From: Roseofilum acuticapitatum BLCC-M154
GTDB taxonomy: Bacteria > Cyanobacteriota > Cyanobacteriia > Cyanobacteriales > Desertifilaceae
Length of the DNA: 42,726 bases
Direction of reading: 5' to 3'
Assembly (NCBI RefSeq): GCF_030068475.1
Contig: NZ_JAQOSP010000024.1
Location: forward strand, 1 to 42,726
Shown: in pieces, positions 31 to 36,287 of the stretch
How the letters are laid out: each line of letters starts with the position of its first letter
Position numbering within the stretch: the first letter of the stretch is position 1
The notes under the pieces: generated by a model
The model's input: the letters and a program-made list of their open reading frames with translations, nothing else
Databases searched by the model: none
Told to the model about the DNA's origin: nothing
Position numbers and translations under genes: made by a program

Positions 31-350
31 AGGGGTATACCTTCTCGGCGGATGTTACGAAAGAAGCTATTGTTATACTCTTGGAATTGGCGACTACTGG
101 CTAAAGCACAGCTTATCAACGTATTATATTCTAAGCATAAATCGGCAATTGTTTTGCTAATTCTGTTGCTCTCTTCAGAATATTGAAAGTCTTGTTTCAG
201 AATGATTAAAATATCGATATCTGAGTCAGGTTCTGCATCCCCTCTTGCTTGAGAACCATAGAGAATAATTTGGTCAATTTGCTGTCCATATAGGGTTTTA
301 AGTTTTTGACAGGTTTGGTTTAAGATAGTGTTAAGAGTTTCTTTGGTCAT
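27..350 (-). CDS. MNT-type minimal nucleotidyltransferase (putative antitoxin)
   Basis: A small nucleotidyltransferase of the DNA polymerase beta superfamily. The signature GSQARGDAEPDSDID lies at residues 32-46 counted from the ATG at 350 and fits the GSx10DxD motif whose two Asp residues bind metal. In characterised MntA-HepT pairs such enzymes neutralise a HEPN toxin by adding AMP to it. The gene overlaps the next downstream gene by four bases, supporting a two-gene module. A longer reading from 389 would overlap the upstream NB-ARC gene by 59 bp, so 350 is preferred; about 20 bp of overlap remains, suggesting that the NB-ARC gene is co-transcribed with it. The partner lies outside the window. 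Confidence 0.85.
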   Translation of the reverse strand: MTKETLNTILNQTCQKLKTLYGQQIDQIILYGSQARGDAEPDSDIDILIILKQDFQYSEESNRISKTIADLCLEYNTLISCALASSRQFQEYNNSFFRNIRREGIPL

Positions 351-1743
351 CTTTGATTTCAACCGGTGATCTTTCCAAGTGTTTATCATTACCGTGCAAA
401 GCGCTATAGTGTTTAATCACAGGTTCTAGAATTAACTGGAAGTGTTTAGAGTCTAGAGATTTTTGAATAAAGCCCCGTTTTCTTAAAGAGTAAATGGTGG
501 CTAAAAGATTGAAGTCTGAGGAAAATTGTTCTGAAGGGATGTTGGACAGATCGGTGAGATTCTCTTGATGAGCTAACCAAGATAATAGGAATTTTTCAGA
601 AGCAGATAAACGCTGATAATGGTCTCTTATGATGAGTTCTATATCGCCTAAAAATAGGTTAGGATAGGATAAGAATTGGGCGACGCTACCATTAAAGAGG
701 TCTTGGATCGTCGCAGCAATAATGTTAAGCCATGAGGGGTTTTGACTGTAGCGGTTGATCAGTTCTAACCATCGATCGCGATCGCTTAATCCTTTGTTTT
801 GTAGGAGTTCTTCGGCTAATTGCACTGAACCGGATAACAGGAGGCTATGACAAGGACGATTTTCGGCTTCTAGGGTGGCTATTTCTGGGGGTTGTTCCCA
901 ACTGAGGAGCAGTACGCAACTGTTGTGGGGCGATCGCCCAATATCTTGCAGCAGTTTACCATAACTCTGGTATTCGGGTAGGTAACGCCCAACGAGTTCT
1001 CCAGGGGTGAGAGTTTCGTGGAAGTCATCCAGGATAATGAAGCAACGGTGCGATCGCAAGTAGTCCAGTAGTGCGCGATGTTCGCTTGCTTCTCCTTGGG
1101 AGAGGAATTGGATTAAGCCAGTTGTGAGGGCGTTAAGATTGGGGAAGGTGCGGTGACTATACCAGATGAGGCGATCGAAATGCGCTGCTATGTCGTCTAC
1201 CAGTTGGGTTGCAAGGGCTGTTTTGCCCATCCCCGATAACCCATAGATGCTGATAATGGCGCTATTTTCGTTGAGTATCCAGTGTTTGAGCGTGTTGAGT
1301 TCCTCTGTACGGTGGGGATAGAGGCGATCGTATTTGGGGATGTGAGTGCGATCGTGTATTTTTTCAGCCTGAAAATTTTCTGATTGATTAATAGAAGTTT
1401 GTTCTTTTACTTTTTCATTTGAAGAATTGTCGTGAAAAATATTTATATTGCCGTTACCCATATGCATATTAGGATTAGAATAGAAAAACGACACATTTTC
1501 TAAAATAGCTCTAACATTCTTTTTTTTGACATCCTCTCCCAACACATCTGATAACAATTTCCACAATTCCCAAGCCATCTTTCTCACATGATCCGTAGAG
1601 CAGTGGTATTCCTCAGCAATTGCTTTATAGTCTTGACGTTCCCAAACCCCCTCCAAAATCGCCTGCTGTAGGGAATCCAGACGTTTTCCTGTTTTCGCAA
1701 AAATCACATCATCTGTCCACTTGAGGACTTCTTGAAGTTCCAT
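331..1743 (-). CDS. NB-ARC (STAND) NTPase with N-terminal helix-turn-helix domain
   Basis: A 470-residue signalling NTPase. Residues 1-85 form a helical HTH-like domain of the kind found at the N terminus of many cyanobacterial NB-ARC proteins (the vWA/MoxR-associated HTH type). A low-complexity linker follows (about 86-135). The NB-ARC domain has Walker A GLSGMGKT (168-175) and Walker B CFIILDDF (234-241). The C-terminal third looks like a winged-helix segment. No WD40, TPR or effector domain follows, so the protein is short for the STAND class. STAND NTPases act as switches that assemble on ligand sensing, often in conflict or cell-death pathways; the specific role here is unknown. Its 3' end overlaps the nucleotidyltransferase gene, so the genes may form one operon. 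Confidence 0.8.
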   Translation of the reverse strand: MELQEVLKWTDDVIFAKTGKRLDSLQQAILEGVWERQDYKAIAEEYHCSTDHVRKMAWELWKLLSDVLGEDVKKKNVRAILENVSFFYSNPNMHMGNGNINIFHDNSSNEKVKEQTSINQSENFQAEKIHDRTHIPKYDRLYPHRTEELNTLKHWILNENSAIISIYGLSGMGKTALATQLVDDIAAHFDRLIWYSHRTFPNLNALTTGLIQFLSQGEASEHRALLDYLRSHRCFIILDDFHETLTPGELVGRYLPEYQSYGKLLQDIGRSPHNSCVLLLSWEQPPEIATLEAENRPCHSLLLSGSVQLAEELLQNKGLSDRDRWLELINRYSQNPSWLNIIAATIQDLFNGSVAQFLSYPNLFLGDIELIIRDHYQRLSASEKFLLSWLAHQENLTDLSNIPSEQFSSDFNLLATIYSLRKRGFIQKSLDSKHFQLILEPVIKHYSALHGNDKHLERSPVEIKDDQRNS

Positions 1744-1958: not shown

Positions 1959-2237
1959 ATGGTAAAAATGTTAGGAACTGAAGAAAAGTGTTCTGAAAAG
2001 CTACCTTTTGCCATGTTGTTTGCAGTAGAGCCTGCTTTTACCAGCATTTCTAGTGAAGTGCTTGAAAAAGAACTTCGCTATAATCCTGAACTTCAGATCA
2101 ACGAAGAAAGTCAATTAAGTCTTATTGTAGCTGGGCAAACCAGCACAAGTGTTAGGAGATCTACTAATACTGGTAGTCTTCCTATACCTGGTACTGGAGA
2201 TTCTGATGACGATAGTATGGGTGATGAAAGCAAGTAA
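1959..2237 (+). CDS. Graspetide-like (omega-ester peptide) precursor, candidate
   Basis: A 92-residue peptide immediately upstream of an ATP-grasp ligase of the microviridin/graspetide type. Residues 1-59 look like a leader: a short motif LPFAMLFAVEP (15-25) recalls the PFFARFL leader helix bound by microviridin ligases, followed by an acidic amphipathic stretch. Residues 60-92 look like the core: rich in Thr/Ser (61-64, 68, 69, 71, 73, 79, 82, 86, 91) followed by a cluster of Asp/Glu (81, 83-85, 89, 90), the donor and acceptor residues needed for side-chain ester rings. There is no TxKYPSD microviridin core. An AGAGGA ribosome-binding site precedes the ATG. Precursor identity is inferred from composition and neighbourhood; the ring pattern cannot be read from sequence. 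Confidence 0.72.
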   Translation: MVKMLGTEEKCSEKLPFAMLFAVEPAFTSISSEVLEKELRYNPELQINEESQLSLIVAGQTSTSVRRSTNTGSLPIPGTGDSDDDSMGDESK

Positions 2238-2257
2238 GTCACTTATTTGAGAAATTC

Positions 2258-2296
2258 AAAGATAGGTGTTTATAAATTATAGATACCTATCTTTTT
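2258..2296 (+). terminator. Hairpin with T-run between precursor and ligase (attenuator/terminator)
   Basis: The arms AAAGATAGGT (2258-2267) and ACCTATCTTT (2285-2294) are perfectly complementary and the stem can extend inward through A-U and G-U pairs. Five T residues end at 2296. It sits between the precursor stop and the ligase start. A partial terminator here would give more precursor than enzyme, as is common in RiPP operons; that role is inferred. Confidence 0.6.
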
Positions 2297-2331
2297 AAGT
2301 TTGTTGGGATTATGTGTTTCATTATAGTTAT

Positions 2332-3324
2332 ATGATAAAGCCAATTCTAGTTATTACAGATAAATGTGATGTTCACGCGGATTTTGTCACCATGGAACTT
2401 AGGAAAATGGGTGGTGATATTATTCGCATGAATACTCAAGATATGGGACATAACTCAGATTTCTTTCTAGGAAAGCCAGATTTACAAGAACCTTGGAAGC
2501 TACAGTTCCATTTCAAAGATTCTAACAAAACTCTAACAGCAGATAGCTTTGATACAATTTGGTATCGAAAACCAGAACCCGTCAATCCCAATCCCAGTAT
2601 TGCCGAAGAACACGCGCAGATTTTTGTTCAGGAAGAATATGCATATTTTTTACGGTCATTTTATACGCTTTATGGTCACAAGAGGTGGGTTAATCCTTTT
2701 TGGAGTTTAAGACACTCCAGCCAAAAGTTACCGAACCTAGAACTTGCAGAAAAACTAGGCTTAAAAATTCCCAAAACTTTAATTACTAACAATGCAGAAG
2801 TGGCTAGAGAGTTTGGGGCATATTGCAACTGGAATTTACTCGTGAAAACCTTTCATTTTTCTGGCTTTGTTGTGAATCAAACAGAAGCGTGGCATTGTTT
2901 TGCCAAAAAAATTGACAAAGAACAGTTTCTTGAATTCGCAGAAACCATACATTTTGCTCCAACTTTTTTACAACAATACATAGACAAATCCATAGAATTA
3001 AGGGTTACTATTATTGGAGAACAAGTCTTTACGGCTGCTATTCACTCACAAGAGATTGAAAAAACCAAGTCTGACTGGAGAGCTATAGACACTTACCAAA
3101 TCAAACATACCATTTACGATCTCCCAGAAGACATCGCTCAGAAACTGTTGGCTTTTAACCGTCATTATTCTTTGGTATTCTCGACATTTGATCTGATTCT
3201 AACGCCTGAAGGAGAATACTACTTTTTAGAATGCAACCCAAATGGTCAATGGTATTGGATTGAAGAATTAACTAAACTTCCTATGGCAAAAGCAATGGCT
3301 GAATTGCTAATCCAAACCAATTAA
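2332..3324 (+). CDS. ATP-grasp ligase of the graspetide/microviridin (MvdD-like) family
   Basis: About 330 residues, the usual size for MvdC/MvdD-type peptide ligases. The N terminus (MIKPILVITDKCDVHADFV) begins the pre-ATP-grasp domain; DTIWYRKPEP follows the family pattern seen before the ATP-grasp fold. The C terminus carries the diagnostic ECNPNGQWYWIE segment (about 300-311), containing metal-binding Glu and Asn. Family members use ATP to form ester or amide bonds between Thr/Ser/Lys and Asp/Glu side chains of a leader-bearing peptide; the preceding 92-aa gene is the obvious substrate. Only one ligase is present, and no acetyltransferase or transporter follows, so rings are probably esters. 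A GTG at 2314 could add six residues; the ATG at 2332 fits family N termini better. Confidence 0.88.
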   Translation: MIKPILVITDKCDVHADFVTMELRKMGGDIIRMNTQDMGHNSDFFLGKPDLQEPWKLQFHFKDSNKTLTADSFDTIWYRKPEPVNPNPSIAEEHAQIFVQEEYAYFLRSFYTLYGHKRWVNPFWSLRHSSQKLPNLELAEKLGLKIPKTLITNNAEVAREFGAYCNWNLLVKTFHFSGFVVNQTEAWHCFAKKIDKEQFLEFAETIHFAPTFLQQYIDKSIELRVTIIGEQVFTAAIHSQEIEKTKSDWRAIDTYQIKHTIYDLPEDIAQKLLAFNRHYSLVFSTFDLILTPEGEYYFLECNPNGQWYWIEELTKLPMAKAMAELLIQTN

Positions 3325-3359
3325 AATTATAATCATTATAAATAAAAATTAGACGTTTT

Positions 3360-3387
3360 GTAGGGGCGAACGGCTGTTCGCCTCTAC
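3360..3387. repeat. 28-bp dispersed palindrome, family A, copy 1
   Basis: An imperfect palindrome beginning GTAGGGGCGAACGG and ending TTCGCCTCTAC. A perfect copy is at 28590-28617 and a shortened one at 42255-42278. It truncates the PIN-domain relic to its right, consistent with insertion of a small mobile palindrome. Confidence 0.8.
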
Positions 3388-3576: not shown

Positions 3577-5046
3577 TCAATTTATACTAGATGGAGCAGA
3601 AGTGCGAAATATTTCCTCATTATTGTCAAAAGCAACTAAATCAATCCGTAGGGGCCCTGCGGTATAGGTCGTTTCCGAGGCGATCGCTTGAATCGTTATG
3701 CGGGTAGGATTTTCCCTGATTTTCTGCACAAAATTCATCAATGTTTCTGGCGAGCCATCCCCTACTTGTAACCGACTTTCTAAAATCCCTCCTCGACGGG
3801 CCCGAAAGCGACAAGACTCAATCAAAATACCAACTTGTTCAATTAACTGCTCTTCACTCATGATTGCACCATTGGTGATTCCTGTAGCAATCACTTCTCC
3901 GGATTCAAACACAACTTGATTTAAGGCCACATCTACAAAAATCTCCACATTAGATTCCCCACGAATATAGTTGCCTGCTGATAATAACCTCACCACATAT
4001 TCCTGACCATCAGCAATTTTTTCTTTTAATCGTTCCACTTGCTCCGGAGTCACTTGAATGACCTGCTCATTGATTTCTCTCGTGCCCGGTTTAACCTGGT
4101 CTCTAGCAAACTGATTAGCAATTTCTAATAAGCGATTCACCGCTTGCATAGATCTTTGAGGATCGAGAACTTCAACTACGGCAGAAGCGAGAATTTGTCC
4201 TCGAAGTAAGGCTAAATTACCTTGCCGCAAATCTTGATAATCTTGATAATATTGCTCAAAAATCCGGACTTGTCGCTCCAAAAATTTTTGTTGATTTTCC
4301 AGTTCTTTTAATTTAGATTCTCGCTCTTGAATGACCTTATTCCGATTTTCAATTTCTCGATCGCGTTCGGCAATTAACTCATTGCGATTGGCAATTTCTT
4401 CGTCTCGTTGAGCAATTTGGGACTTGACCTCATCTCGCTGACGAATTAACTCTTCGCGCTCCGTCCTTAATTTATCTAACTCCGATCGCAAATTTTCAGT
4501 TTGAACGGTTACTCGCTTTAATTGATCTTGAGCCTGTTGAAATTTGCCCACGATCTCCTGTAGCTGACCTTGGGTTTGCTCAAAGTTCTTTTGAATTTCC
4601 CGTAATTGAGCTTGGGTTTTCTTTAGATTTTCTTCCGTTGCTGACTTCTGAGCTGTAACCGTTTGCAAACTAGCATTGAGATTATCTAAATTTTGCTCGA
4701 CCAGTTCCCGTTCGGCCCGCACCTGAGCTAAGTCAATTTCAATCTGTGCCTTTTGTGCTTGGGTAGACTGAAGTTCTCGACGAGCTTCGCGGAGCTTACG
4801 CTGGGTTTCATCATACTCAAAAATGCCTCGGCGCAAAGGCTGACTCATGGCAAAGAGAATGCCTAGGGTTGAGCCAGAAATCAAAGTCCCCGTAACAATC
4901 GTGACTAAAACAGCCGTTTGTCGGGGGCGAAGATTAAATAAGCTCAACCTGGCTTTACCCACCTTAGTTCCCAGGCGATCGCCCAGAGTCGCGAGTAAAC
5001 CCCCTAAAAACAAAATCGAGACAATCAGAATAATGCCAATAGTCAT
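3577..5046 (-). CDS. DUF3084 coiled-coil membrane protein
   Basis: A 489-residue protein of the cyanobacterial DUF3084 family. Two N-terminal hydrophobic helices (about 2-22 and 44-66) flank a short basic loop with NLRPRQTAV; a very long coiled coil follows (about 78-265, rich in Glu, Gln, Lys and Arg, with near-repeats such as RDEEIANRNELIAERDREI), then a globular C-terminal domain of about 220 residues. The layout suggests a membrane-anchored protein with the bulk on one face of the membrane. Function is not established. It ends 95 bp from the ntcA start side and is transcribed in the same direction, so it may be read with ntcA. Confidence 0.85.
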   Translation of the reverse strand: MTIGIILIVSILFLGGLLATLGDRLGTKVGKARLSLFNLRPRQTAVLVTIVTGTLISGSTLGILFAMSQPLRRGIFEYDETQRKLREARRELQSTQAQKAQIEIDLAQVRAERELVEQNLDNLNASLQTVTAQKSATEENLKKTQAQLREIQKNFEQTQGQLQEIVGKFQQAQDQLKRVTVQTENLRSELDKLRTEREELIRQRDEVKSQIAQRDEEIANRNELIAERDREIENRNKVIQERESKLKELENQQKFLERQVRIFEQYYQDYQDLRQGNLALLRGQILASAVVEVLDPQRSMQAVNRLLEIANQFARDQVKPGTREINEQVIQVTPEQVERLKEKIADGQEYVVRLLSAGNYIRGESNVEIFVDVALNQVVFESGEVIATGITNGAIMSEEQLIEQVGILIESCRFRARRGGILESRLQVGDGSPETLMNFVQKIRENPTRITIQAIASETTYTAGPLRIDLVAFDNNEEIFRTSAPSSIN

Positions 5047-32717: not shown

Positions 32718-33989
32718 TTATGCTAACGCAGAAATCGCCGCACTAGCCTTAATATAAGCCCCCAGCCCCAGATGCTCTAGCTTGGGATAACAACTCCGGT
32801 AATGCGTCTCGCTCACAAACAACCACAGAATCCGAGTCCGCCGATTCTGGGGTGGCTTAGGACAGGGAGCATAACCATCGGTGTAAATAATCAGACCATC
32901 GTAATCTCGATGTTCTTCCAGATACGCTAAAACTGGGTCAAAATTTGTCCCGCCTCGTCCTGTTAACTGAACCTCCCTTTTGGCGCGGCGGAACGTCATT
33001 ACATCGGCGGTAATCTGAGCATCAAATTGAATGACATCGATCGCCGGAACGCCATAGTTAAAAAAGCGATTCACCACGGAAAATCCCTGCTGTAGCTCTT
33101 TGGTTCCCATGGAGCCACTCACATCAATGGCAAAGAGTAAACGGGTGGTAAACTCGCGACGACTGCCCATATAGGCGAACCCATAACGGCGATTCGGCTT
33201 CATGCGGGTGAGCCGTCGCTGTTGGCTGAGGATGGAGGTGCGAAACTTGCGTAAAACTGCCCGATAGTCGAGTTTTGGGTGCAGATTGGCCAAAATCCGT
33301 TCGCGCAATTTGCCGCCAATGCTGCCCCAACTGTCATTGGCTTGTGCCATTCTCACCAGATCGTCTAGGCGATCGCTCAATAATTCGTCTCGATCCCACT
33401 GGTCAGTATTTTCCACACCGCTCAGGTCTGCGTCGGTATAGACTTCTAGGAGATCTGAAGTTGAAGAGTTAGAAGAGCTGCATGGGAGGGCAGTTTCAGC
33501 TTCTCCCATCCCTGCTCCAGAGCCTCCCTGCTGAGGATTGGGGGACTGTTGATCCCCCCTAGCCCCCCTTAAAAAGGGGGGAACCTGATCGAGCAGCTTG
33601 TGGTAGTAGAACTCGAAGAATTGTTGGTCAGAACTGGAGTCGCCAAACACATCCCGCGCCCTCGGAAACGGTAGCTCGGTTTGCAGATATTCCTGGAGCG
33701 TTATATTACTGGCAGCATAGCTAATGGCGGAGTGCGCTTGGCGGCGACTGTAGGGGTGTTTGAGCAGAATCCGTAGGGCTTCAAAACGTAGGGTGGCTTC
33801 TAAGTGGCGATCGCTCAATTGCGCGATAAACTCCGGATTATACTCAATTCTACCCCGTTGCACGCGAATCGTTTGAATGCGTGGCTCAGACACCAAAGCG
33901 TGACTCGTCCAGACAGCCAAGAATAGTGGCTCAACCAGCAGCCACTTTTCGACTATTCGAGCAATACGGTGACGGGCAATCTGTTTCAT
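32718..33989 (-). CDS. vWA-domain protein (DUF2201-like N terminus)
   Basis: About 423 residues. The N-terminal 120 residues resemble the DUF2201 metallopeptidase-like domain; the C-terminal vWA domain has the MIDAS motif AIDVSGSMGTKE (near residue 287), TGRGGTNFDP and LIIYTDGYAP. Such proteins partner MoxR ATPases, and one is encoded at 35202-36287. Residues about 133-150 (QVPPFLRGARGDQQSPNP) are encoded by a palindromic repeat inserted in frame. Start at ATG 33989, overlapping the RelE stop by four bases (ATGA); a frame from 34034 would overlap it more. Confidence 0.88.
   Translation of the reverse strand: MKQIARHRIARIVEKWLLVEPLFLAVWTSHALVSEPRIQTIRVQRGRIEYNPEFIAQLSDRHLEATLRFEALRILLKHPYSRRQAHSAISYAASNITLQEYLQTELPFPRARDVFGDSSSDQQFFEFYYHKLLDQVPPFLRGARGDQQSPNPQQGGSGAGMGEAETALPCSSSNSSTSDLLEVYTDADLSGVENTDQWDRDELLSDRLDDLVRMAQANDSWGSIGGKLRERILANLHPKLDYRAVLRKFRTSILSQQRRLTRMKPNRRYGFAYMGSRREFTTRLLFAIDVSGSMGTKELQQGFSVVNRFFNYGVPAIDVIQFDAQITADVMTFRRAKREVQLTGRGGTNFDPVLAYLEEHRDYDGLIIYTDGYAPCPKPPQNRRTRILWLFVSETHYRSCYPKLEHLGLGAYIKASAAISALA
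33541..33590. repeat. Palindromic repeat inserted within the vWA coding sequence
   Basis: Contains GATCCCCCCTAGCCCCCCTT, then AAAAAGGGGGGAAC; the C-run and G-run pair as a hairpin. Similar CCCCCCTTaaaaAGGGGGG elements are widespread in cyanobacterial intergenic DNA. Its length keeps the vWA frame open. Confidence 0.75.
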
Positions 33990-34240
33990 CGTAATAATAA
34001 ATCGTACTCTGCATGTGTCCCAATCCAAAACCACACTACATCAGTATCTTTCTCTACAGCTAAAGCACGGTAATGAATTCCTACTCGCACTGACCAGAAT
34101 GGGCCCACCTTCTTGAAATGTAGTGACGGATAGCGAGAATCTTGTTTTAGCAACTCGTAACAACGATCGGCAAGTTCTTGAATCTCACGTGGTAACTGTC
34201 GATAGTGATACCAAAAGTCAGGAGTTGCACGATATTTCAT
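33986..34240 (-). CDS. RelE/ParE-family toxin
   Basis: An 84-residue protein starting MKYRATPDFWYHYRQLPREI with LHFKKVGPFWSVRVGIHYRA in the centre and a C-terminal WIGTHAEYDLLL, the pattern of RelE/HigB-type mRNA interferases. Start at ATG 34240, which overlaps the antitoxin stop by four bases; its own stop overlaps the vWA start by four. So antitoxin, toxin and vWA genes are translationally linked. Confidence 0.85.
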   Translation of the reverse strand: MKYRATPDFWYHYRQLPREIQELADRCYELLKQDSRYPSLHFKKVGPFWSVRVGIHYRALAVEKDTDVVWFWIGTHAEYDLLLR

Positions 34241-34437
34241 AGATCGGTACAACGCCCTTCCTGTAGATGTTGCAATGCTTTCTCAGCGAGTCCATCAAGC
34301 TTACCTGCCGCTACATCTTCTTCAAACTGACGATCCCAAATCTCTGCATCAAACTCTGCAAACCAAGCTCTAAAAGCAGCTAAGTCTTCCGCAGGTAATT
34401 GACTAACAACTTGTTCAGCTTCTTTCAATGTACTCAT
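34237..34437 (-). CDS. Antitoxin of the RelE-type module
   Basis: A 66-residue acidic helical protein, MSTLKEAEQVVSQLPAEDLA ... FDAEIWDRQFEEDVAAGKLD, a pattern seen in small antitoxins that precede RelE toxins in cyanobacteria. No HTH is obvious. ATGA overlap with the toxin gene. Confidence 0.82.
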   Translation of the reverse strand: MSTLKEAEQVVSQLPAEDLAAFRAWFAEFDAEIWDRQFEEDVAAGKLDGLAEKALQHLQEGRCTDL

Positions 34438-34488
34438 AATTAGTGCAAAAGCTAAATTTTTATTGAGATAATTTTACTATACCTTTAT

Positions 34489-35109
34489 CTAAATAGTTTT
34501 GGCGGCAAAAATCTCTGCGGCGCTCAGTTGAAATTCCGGGAAGGCCAAAGACTCAATCTTCTCATTTCCGGTGAACAGCGTTACCTGATACTCCCCATCC
34601 ACCAGTTGGTAAACCGAGAGCGTCGGTTGTTTGGGATTGCCAATAAACCTGCGGCCACCTAAACCCAGATAATCGACAATCCAGTATTCGGGGATACCCA
34701 TCAGTTCGTAGTCCCCGACCTTCCTCAGATAATCATCTTGCCAGTTTGTACTGACGACCTCGATCGCCAGTCGGACGGAATCTCCCTTGGTAATAATCGA
34801 TTCTTGCTGCCAACGGGGTTCCTCCGCCAGTTGCGCTTTATTGAGGACAATAAGATCGGGTTGGTAACCGGATTCGCCATCAATTGGTTTCAGCAAGCAA
34901 TCGCCGGGAATTGTACAAGGGTATTGCGATCGCCGAATTTCAAAATGGAGTTCGCCCGCAATAAAACCGATAACGTTAGAATGTTCCCCAGTTGCTAAAG
35001 GCATTTTGACGATCGCTCCATTGCGTAGCTCGTATTTATCAATCGAGTTTTCTGGATACCAGTCCACAAATTCATCGAACGATACGGGGGTTGTTAGAGT
35101 TGCAATCAT
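34489..35109 (-). CDS. Uma2 family endonuclease (DUF820)
   Basis: A 206-residue Uma2 protein with YQPDLIVLNK and RLAIEVVSTNWQDDYLRKVG as the active-site parts and [20 protein letters not shown]. It resembles the gene at 15353-15958. It lies between the MoxR and the antitoxin genes on the same strand, as part of cargo separating MoxR from vWA. Confidence 0.9.
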   Translation of the reverse strand: MIATLTTPVSFDEFVDWYPENSIDKYELRNGAIVKMPLATGEHSNVIGFIAGELHFEIRRSQYPCTIPGDCLLKPIDGESGYQPDLIVLNKAQLAEEPRWQQESIITKGDSVRLAIEVVSTNWQDDYLRKVGDYELMGIPEYWIVDYLGLGGRRFIGNPKQPTLSVYQLVDGEYQVTLFTGNEKIESLAFPEFQLSAAEIFAAKTI

Positions 35110-35142
35110 AGTTATTCAGGATGAGAGATTAAAAGAGGTTGA

Positions 35143-35175
35143 AGAAACCCGGTTTCTTGGAGAAACCGGGTTTCT
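35143..35175. repeat. Tandem 15-bp palindromes (AGAAACCSGGTTTCT)
   Basis: AGAAACCCGGTTTCT (35143-35157) and AGAAACCGGGTTTCT (35161-35175), each internally palindromic and together able to form a larger hairpin. This is a repeat type common in cyanobacterial genomes. Confidence 0.85.
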
Positions 35176-35201
35176 GGCGGTTTCTGGCGAAGGATTGGGG
35201 T

Positions 35202-36287
35202 TCAAACCTGAATCGCCTCTAAATACTCCGACAAGAAGTCAATCAGATCCATCGATTCAGCGACAAAACCCATGGCATCGCTAAATTTGGGGCTTTGAAC
35301 CAGGGAGGAAAAATGGGCGATCGCCTCCTGCTGTTTGGCTTTGGCGAGATGCTGGAGGTATTTCAACAGATTCTTGCGGGCCTGATCGGCTTTATTTTCC
35401 GGGCAATGGCCCGAATTTAGCCAGAGTAAAACCCGTTCATTTAAACTCGCAAAGTCCTGAATTTCCAGGTCTTTAAGCTGCTTGGAATACTTAGAAAATT
35501 GTAACAACAGTTGCTCCGGTTCCAAACCCCGTTGGTTAGCCAAGCTTTGGCGAAATGCGAGACTAGCATGAGTCCCCACCATACCGGCGATCAGTTTGAA
35601 ATGAATGTCTTGCAGATCTTTATGGTTGCCAACAAAATCCGCCACTTTCACCCAAGCGCGGCGATCGGGGGTTTTGACTAGACCGGCAGTGGCGATCGCC
35701 GTATCCGCATCCAGATTATCACCATCGAGATATTCTGGATGCTGTTGGATAAAGGTTAACACCCGCGAATCAATATCGCGATCGGCAGCCCAGAGTAGCC
35801 AATCTTCCACCGTCGGCGCAAACTCGTAGAGGTTAAACCGGGATACCAGGGCCGGATCGAGTTCGGTTAGTTGATATTCTTCTCCCCCATTCACCGCAGC
35901 AATGACAATACTGCCAGGGGGTAAGGCTTTACCGGCTAAGGTTTTGTTCAGGGTGAGGTCTTGAACCGCCTGCAAAATTTCGGGACGGGCGCGGTTCAGC
36001 TCGTCTAGGAAGAGTACCACGGGGCGATCGGCTTCAGGCCACCAGTAGGGGGGTAAAAACACCGATCGCCCGGTTTTCTCATCTTTATGCAACAAGCCAA
36101 TCAAATCCCCCGGATCGCTCATCTGACCCAAAAAGAAGGGGATAACAGGCAGATTTTGGCGCTGACGGTAGAAATGGCTAATAATTTCTGATTTACCAAT
36201 ACCATGCTTTCCCACCAGAAGAATATTTTGCTCCGGTGGGGTGAGTTCCAGCACTTGATAGAGTTCGCGAGCATCAATACGAATCAT
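35202..36287 (-). CDS. MoxR-like AAA+ ATPase
   Basis: A 361-residue AAA+ protein. Walker A is GKHGIGKS (26-33) and Walker B VVLFLDELNRA (90-100); IVIAAVNGG is sensor 1 and LDPALVSRFNLYEF carries the arginine-finger region. MoxR ATPases act as chaperones with vWA partners in metal insertion or complex activation. The vWA gene is 1.2 kb downstream on the same strand, separated by Uma2 and TA genes. Start at ATG 36287. Confidence 0.93.
   Translation of the reverse strand: MIRIDARELYQVLELTPPEQNILLVGKHGIGKSEIISHFYRQRQNLPVIPFFLGQMSDPGDLIGLLHKDEKTGRSVFLPPYWWPEADRPVVLFLDELNRARPEILQAVQDLTLNKTLAGKALPPGSIVIAAVNGGEEYQLTELDPALVSRFNLYEFAPTVEDWLLWAADRDIDSRVLTFIQQHPEYLDGDNLDADTAIATAGLVKTPDRRAWVKVADFVGNHKDLQDIHFKLIAGMVGTHASLAFRQSLANQRGLEPEQLLLQFSKYSKQLKDLEIQDFASLNERVLLWLNSGHCPENKADQARKNLLKYLQHLAKAKQQEAIAHFSSLVQSPKFSDAMGFVAESMDLIDFLSEYLEAIQV

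Follow-up and report, generated by a model that had tools for sequence, protein, structure and literature searches.

The window analysed here, a 42,726-nucleotide stretch of the Roseofilum acuticapitatum BLCC-M154 genome, probably carries a single-ligase graspetide cassette that belongs to a distinct cyanobacterial clade and is controlled by a divergently transcribed STAND-type regulator, through repeats in the spacer between the two. Evidence for a graspetide is good, and as such the finding is nothing out of the ordinary; the novelty lies in a conserved gene for an HTH-like/NB-ARC protein, in the 10-bp arrays and in the way both turn up again next to other cargo genes. The original prediction paired a 92-aa precursor with one ATP-grasp ligase, and this pairing was confirmed by the location of the open reading frames (ORFs), the relatives in other genomes and the codon pattern of the leader. 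Its description of a minimal, compact two-gene system did not survive, because the divergent HTH-like/NB-ARC gene is a conserved third gene and the spacer has an operator-like array.

The ligase (2332–3324, forward strand) is a graspetide-type ATP-grasp enzyme of 330 aa, with an MvdD pre-ATP-grasp domain followed by a RimK-like ATP-grasp domain. Its likely start is the ATG at 2332, within a GTG-initiated ORF beginning at 2314, and the NPNGQWYWIE segment that had been taken as diagnostic is indeed present, at residues 302–311. Both Pfam matches are barely above their cut-offs (PF21068, 29.8 bits for a cut-off of 27; PF08443, 22.2 bits for a cut-off of 21), and the protein lies under the cut-offs of all the NCBIfam graspetide-ligase models, the best being TIGR04187 (217 bits, cut-off 350). 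Its matches in the PDB include AMdnB (E 1.7e-37), two entries named ‘ATP grasp ligase’ that we take to be MdnC and MdnB (E 1.1e-36 and 1.5e-36), and CdnC. In a tree of 54 rows, including two actinobacterial tgmB rows and E. coli RimK, the window ligase groups with those of loci L009, L010 and L044 (100/99) in what is called subfamily A here. Subfamilies A, B (5 rows), C (2 rows) and D (12 rows) form a clade of 23 rows (97/94), apart from an 18-row microviridin-type clade (97/91), the two tgmB rows and E. coli RimK; the long branches of A and D meet in this tree, so the branching order within the clade is unsure. PF21068, the PDB homologues and the tree place the enzyme in the MvdC/MvdD-type ATP-grasp group. 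The clustering with non-RiPP ATP-grasp enzymes that would have counted against the original prediction was looked for in the same tree, and the ligase did not group with E. coli RimK; a RimK-type or non-RiPP ligase was rejected on the Pfam and PDB matches and the tree. The predicted absence of a second ligase also held, none being found in the window's genome at E 1e-20.

The precursor gene (1959–2237, forward strand) was delimited from its ORF, its relatives and an alignment of five precursors. The leader of the 92-aa product reads LPFAMLFAVEPAFTSI...YNPELQIN and the core QTSTSVRRSTNTG...DSDDDSMGDESK, with a possible cleavage site after IVAG. The LPFAMLF motif, at residues 15–21, differs from the PFFARFL helix of microviridins, as had been noticed, and conforms to the Phhx(1,2)h pattern described for graspetide leaders in the available text of Makarova et al. 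(2022; PMC8939145), in a gene that adjoins the ligase. The invariant residues of the five aligned precursors include P16, F17, A18 and M19, Y41 and N42, Q46, and G72, together with S62, T63, S68, T69, D83, D85, D89 and E90 in the core, a set of Thr/Ser donors and Asp/Glu acceptors of the graspetide kind. The stretch separating the Thr/Ser and acidic clusters differs in length among subfamily A cores, so a hairpin or stem-loop would fit, in any of several connectivities compatible with the sequence. In the leader, third codon positions vary most in all four comparisons (relative to Arthrospira, 10 differences at first, 9 at second and 25 at third positions). The precursor matches no Pfam or NCBIfam family at E 10. 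As originally proposed, its core lacks TxKYPSD and Thr/Ser residues precede an acidic cluster. None of the TxKYPSD core, PFFARFL leader and paired ligases of microviridins is found here, and membership of that group is ruled out by the leader, the core, the number of ligases and the tree; Pfam, NCBIfam, PDB, tree and precursor alignment all bear out a graspetide-type ligase and precursor that are not of the microviridin kind.

The core had also been called unfamiliar, which holds in a relative sense: the plan of Thr/Ser residues followed by an acidic tail recurs in the sister subfamilies, and graspetides with many core patterns have already been catalogued (PMC8939145 and PMC13097080, in their available text). 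Precursors of subfamilies A–D share a proline with hydrophobic residues, followed by Y[ND]PxxQ or a near variant (YNARFQ in one Arthrospira copy, YNPETK in one L061 copy). Nearly all the clade precursors then have a Thr/Ser cluster and an acidic tail, the tail being missing from the L063 precursor (subfamily D). Profile comparison of the leaders gave a strong match between D and B (E 5.5e-8, probability 95%) and a weak one between A and D (E 6e-4, probability 29%); a direct match of the A leader onto the B leader failed (E 0.05, probability 1%). Precursor number varies: L061, of subfamily B, has precursors on both sides of its ligase (2403–2639 and 4503–4736), and two precursors are also present in L051 and in the Arthrospira locus L009, where both precede the ligase. 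At L054 (subfamily C), an ORF resembling a GNAT acetyltransferase on inspection lies between precursor and ligase (3897–4463).

Close relatives of the cassette occur in Arthrospira, Okeania and one further genome, with ligases 79–86% identical to that of the window. A genome scan for the precursor yielded three loci (Arthrospira sp. PCC 9108, an Okeania MAG and a Trichodesmium MAG); the precursor relatives in the three named genomes are 51–69% identical, and one more was found in a further genome. Two precursors lie ahead of the ligase in Arthrospira and one in Okeania. The Trichodesmium precursor is broken and stops early, and its 12-kb locus has no ligase (best tblastn E 8.6). A graspetide-type ligase is present at E 1e-20 in 69 of 291 genomes of the same order, but a close one was found only in G563 (79%), apart from the window's own genome, and five congeners of that genome have no ligase at E 1e-20; the cassette is, thus, rare and patchy. 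Searches of plasmids gave no match to the precursor and ligase matches on 79 records, all below 60% identity, and viral contigs had no match to ligase peptide patterns, in a search that reaches close relatives only. A mobile origin was rejected on the basis of these plasmid and viral contig searches.

The product of the divergent gene (331–1743, reverse strand) is 470 aa long; its N-terminal domain spans about 90 aa, and it also has an NB-ARC domain (PF00931, 39.8 bits for a cut-off of 23.5) of the STAND class. A P-loop, GLSGMGKT, and a Walker-B-like motif, FIILDDF, can be read in its sequence. PF00931 and synteny make it a likely dedicated regulator. No sensor repeats or TPRs were matched in the 470 aa. 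The N-terminal domain appears HTH-like on inspection and from weak, sub-threshold matches: among ten diverse members, in which 11 of 91 alignment columns are invariant, HTH-type Pfam matches were below threshold (Sigma70_r4 in three of the ten, best E 0.085), and a PDB search with a profile of these ten domains retrieved no DNA-binding protein (best E 0.11). One HTH_23 match above cut-off was obtained with the short protein of L058, with its best stretch in the C-terminal part. We infer DNA binding by this domain mainly because of the arrays described below. A minimal nucleotidyltransferase (27–389; PF01909, 44.5 bits) adjoins the NB-ARC gene.

When the 470-aa protein was compared by BLAST with the ORFs of the ligase loci, its N-terminal domain was found divergent to the precursor in all 22 full-length clade loci that could be tested (the window, L009, L010 and L044; L046, L050, L057, L059 and L061; L054 and L055; and L045, L047, L048, L049, L051, L052, L053, L058, L060, L063 and L070). 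It was found in none of 29 other ligase loci (L033–L037, L039–L043, L062, L067, L071, L072, L077, L079–L086, L143, L144 and L147–L150; L065 is the same place as L043), for which upstream flanks ranged from about 0.7 kb. Left out of the counts are L056 and L140, which lack upstream room at a contig edge, L142, a microviridin-type locus also at a contig edge, the ligase-less L011, and the remnants L139 and L141 described below; L038 coincides with L139 and does not figure among the 29. L011 nevertheless retains the N-terminal-domain gene, the frame of which is broken there and in L009. Ten subfamily D loci encode a short protein of about 160 aa consisting of the N-terminal domain without NB-ARC. 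Two clade members survive as 5'-truncated remnants, L139 (95% identical to B) and L141 (D-like), and have neither this neighbour nor a recognizable precursor. For L050, L057 and L061, the start of the divergent gene was placed manually according to the BLAST frames and could be one codon off.

The spacer between the divergent gene and the precursor is 198–222 bp long in 19 of 23 loci (the 22 and L011), the exceptions being L045, L052, L063 and L070. Spacer comparison identified two operator-like arrays in the window: array 1 (1780–1809) has three 10-bp units, TCCTACATTA, TCCCATATTT and TCCCATTTCT, and array 2 (1863–1883) has two, TCCCCCTTAA and TCCCATTTTT, which are 11 bp apart. Similar CCCCTAAATCCYATTTTT stretches in L010 and L011, and a related one before the paralogues L125 and L126, were recognized by eye. 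Array 2 adjoins a possible −35 box, TTGTAA (1882–1887), and −10 box, TAGAAT (1904–1909), in a promoter consensus scan that did no better than chance (4 found, 6.2 expected). The array unit differs between subfamilies: TCCCAyTTTT-like in A, CCACTAAA-like in B, TCCGTATTTT-like in C and TyCGACTTTA in D. A lag of 10 ranks first among the 31 lags in subfamilies A, B and D, exceeding 200 of 200 shuffles; it comes second in L061, and C and L045 also have another best lag. When each subfamily or odd case was represented by a single spacer (six sequences, first 150 bp), lag 10 again came out best (0.290 versus 0.170 ± 0.019). Searched genome-wide, the exact patterns gave seven matches for D in eight genomes (none in three of the eight), two for A in G563 and four for B in four genomes, all within these spacers, with no matches for the reversed controls; as the patterns were derived from the spacers and the chance expectations were 0.13, 0.03 and 0.00, this shows only the absence of an exact second site. 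A looser array pattern had 12 matches in the window's genome, versus seven for the reversed control and 4.4 expected; two lie in the window spacer, and one is located on contig C50, some 90 bp ahead of a further copy of the HTH-like domain.

The divergent gene has many paralogues. In G000 there are 12 matches to the entire protein, some of which cover NB-ARC alone; for the N-terminal domain there are 28 matches in G563, 24 in G352 and five in G450. Of these last 57 matches, the four that are graspetide-linked and the 25 weakest were omitted, and the upstream regions of the other 28, which had played no part in finding the period, provided an out-of-sample test. Their first 150 bp have a lag-10 autocorrelation of 0.293, a value reached by none of 200 shuffles (0.179 ± 0.009), with further peaks at lags 20 and 30; the value for the next 150 bp, 0.186, was reached by 88 of 200 shuffles. 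Lag 10 is the best single lag in 13 of the 28 regions. A TATAAT-like box lies 24–36 bp before the start of the HTH-like match in 16 of the 28 paralogues, and in none or one of the 28 in each of five windows farther away. The divergent ORFs beside the paralogues include, by inspection, likely secreted proteins, a MoxR-like ATPase and small peptides, several paralogues having no clear divergent ORF. On this evidence, the family appears to have the graspetide pathway as one of its cargoes, and the probable divergent switch seems to belong to a wider bacterial family tied to tandem ten-base repeats.

Some of these neighbourhoods merit separate mention. The cargo ORFs at L111–L138 include an RTX-like protein (L128), a MoxR-like ATPase (L117) and small peptides (L118, L135 and L136), all assigned by inspection, and new peptide systems are possible among them. 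At L100 (G000, contig C86, 1–7000), a copy of the divergent gene is split over frames (63% and 54% identical) and accompanied by about five array units, counted by eye, with no graspetide beside it; a nucleotidyltransferase ORF nearly identical to that at 27–389 of the window is followed by an ORF presumably of the HEPN-like family, which suggests that L100 may be a duplicated segment with another cargo. In the window, a vWA-like ORF (32718–34034, reverse strand) lies near a MoxR-like ATPase ORF (35202–36287, reverse strand), and on inspection the ORFs in 32718–36287 could form a vWA-MoxR type system. A short repeat after the ligase (3358–3387) is found dozens of times across the genome, in either orientation, and looks like a small dispersed palindromic element.

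Between precursor and ligase lies an RNA hairpin (2258–2294, forward strand) with a 17-pair stem and a T-rich tail. The gap that contains it folds more stably than any of 200 shuffles (z −4.34). Different hairpins are found in the corresponding gap of other loci: after the first precursor of L009 (z −3.14), in L010 (−3.03) and, weakly, in L044 (−1.78); the gap directly ahead of the L009 ligase has none (z 0.82). The window hairpin is possibly a partial terminator favouring expression of the precursor over the ligase. The locus was originally said to lack an acetyltransferase and a transporter, which agrees with our inspection of the nearby ORFs, where neither an acetyltransferase nor a peptide exporter was recognized. 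Two C39-type peptidase domains are encoded elsewhere in the window's genome and could serve leader cleavage. The absence of a local protease is not unusual, because a microviridin leader protease is reported to be encoded in trans (PMC13039773, available text).

The observations cover gene order, homology, conservation and the periodic repeats; from them a scheme can be proposed for leader binding, ring formation and cleavage, and for DNA binding, the direction of regulation, its signal and the biological role. The ligase would bind the precursor leader at LPFAMLF...YNPxxQ and join Thr/Ser residues of the STS/ST cluster (about 62–71) to Asp/Glu residues of the tail (83–90) through dehydration driven by ATP. 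The product would be a hairpin or stem-loop closed by at least two ester rings, with a loop whose length varies. Cleavage after an AG/GG doublet, by a protease encoded elsewhere, would remove the leader. The HTH-like domain would read the tandem 10-bp repeats between the two genes, and the divergent protein would act on its own promoter and on that of the precursor and ligase genes, with NB-ARC as the switch.

A wider reading can be advanced tentatively, as less likely to be right than wrong. The divergent genes would constitute a large, undescribed cyanobacterial HTH-like(-STAND) family, each member reading its own 10-bp array, with one unit per helical turn and per HTH, head-to-tail, and controlling itself and one divergent cargo (graspetide pathway, secreted proteins or ATPases). 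The unit would track the presumed recognition helix (DHVRK with TCCCA, EGYxKD with TYCGAC), amounting to a one-domain-per-10-bp code, and the modified peptide might be the STAND ligand.

Other readings of the locus were weighed against control of the cassette through the spacer repeats. A self-sensing loop, in which the mature graspetide, by binding NB-ARC, activates the operon that encodes it, is compatible with that control; it is suggested by the one-to-one pairing of peptide cassette and divergent gene and by the ligand-switched nature of STAND regulators such as MalT. It is nonetheless unlikely, given that no sensor repeats are matched in the 470-aa protein, that the short D proteins lack NB-ARC and that the paralogues examined adjoin other genes. 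The same D proteins bear on the idea that the NB-ARC protein is the STAND sensor or effector of a conflict or cell-death system, with the modified acidic peptide as its signal or toxin: the conserved part is the N-terminal domain, ten D loci have no NB-ARC, and 10-bp arrays adjoin the gene family. Matches to PADLOC defence families were all weak (with the window protein, E 0.0011 at best; overall, 2.5e-4, with L010). AP-ATPases are coupled to modified peptides, including acidic-type ones, in actinobacterial VMAP systems (PMC7159879, available text), the window protein has a weak FxSxx_TPR match (17.2 bits, E 0.0014, cut-off 300), and the HTH-type matches of the N-terminal domain are sub-threshold, with no relevant PDB match; even so, a conflict function appears quite unlikely.

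It is also conceivable that the divergent gene is a passenger retained by shared descent and that the repeats are a by-product of an AT-rich spacer. The clade loci are all homologous, hence not independent, and the gene family is multi-copy (12 in G000; 28, 24 and 5 in G563, G352 and G450), but the linkage persists although clade ligases fall to about 32–37% identity with the window ligase, and no dinucleotide shuffle reaches the period-10 signal, which the next 150 bp do not show; this explanation is therefore improbable. Less probable still is tagging or ligation of a small acidic protein by a RimK-like ATP-grasp enzyme, with no macrocycle. The RimK-like domain matches would be in keeping with it, but the tree places the ligase among graspetide ligases and well away from E. 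coli RimK, its MvdD pre-ATP-grasp match is above cut-off, and the precursor has a Phhx(1,2)h leader and a donor/acceptor core. For the preferred reading, a graspetide cassette under the control of its divergent neighbour, the consequence is that a clade with members in Arthrospira and Okeania gains a candidate regulator and operator, so that silent clusters become testable via the regulator. The repeated regulator–cargo arrangement can be recognized in DNA by its 10-bp tandem arrays, and this opens the function and regulons of multi-copy cyanobacterial HTH-like/NB-ARC genes to direct testing.

Among known systems, the microviridins (MvdC/MvdD, MdnB/MdnC) resemble that of the window in their ATP-grasp family, leader with proline and hydrophobic residues, Thr/Ser donors and acidic acceptors. 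They differ in having two ligases rather than one and in the PFFARFL and TxKYPSD motifs, which the window system lacks, and their ligases belong to another clade. The actinobacterial tgmA/tgmB graspetides (TIGR04186/TIGR04187), which we take to be of the fuscimiditide type, also have a single ligase, and TIGR04187 is the best NCBIfam model for the window ligase. However, neither window gene reaches the cut-offs of these families (217 versus 350 bits for the ligase; no match of TIGR04186 to the precursor), the tree keeps the ligase apart from the two tgmB rows, and no methyltransferase was seen beside it on inspection.

The families catalogued by Makarova et al. (2022; PMC8939145), of which the available text counts 174, and in PMC13097080, where the available text numbers graspetide groups to 43 with their co-occurring proteins, likewise have a precursor beside an ATP-grasp gene, the Phhx(1,2)h leader and varied cores. 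The window clade may be one of the numbered groups of PMC13097080. The co-occurring genes in the available text of PMC8939145 were drawn from same-strand directons, so a divergent partner would be missed; NB-ARC does not appear in the available main texts of these two papers, nor ‘transcription’ in that of PMC13097080. The VMAP modules (PMC7159879, available text) share with the window an AP-ATPase coupled to a modified peptide, but the window has a graspetide instead of rSAM/FxSxx peptides and another N-terminal domain; the available main text of that paper contains neither ‘ATP-grasp’ nor ‘RiPP’. The accessible parts of the literature on graspetide regulation and on divergent NB-ARC regulators in cyanobacteria yielded nothing on such a pairing, and those on cyanobacterial NB-ARC, STAND and HTH proteins concern sigma factors, some carrying NB-ARC. 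Our literature searches found nothing joining ATP-grasp, RiPP and NB-ARC. Regulators of the MalT type are ligand-switched STAND proteins with direct-repeat sites. The window protein, which has another N-terminal domain and in which no TPR sensor was matched, differs from them in these respects, but resembles them in combining a STAND ATPase with direct-repeat sites, those of the window being predicted.
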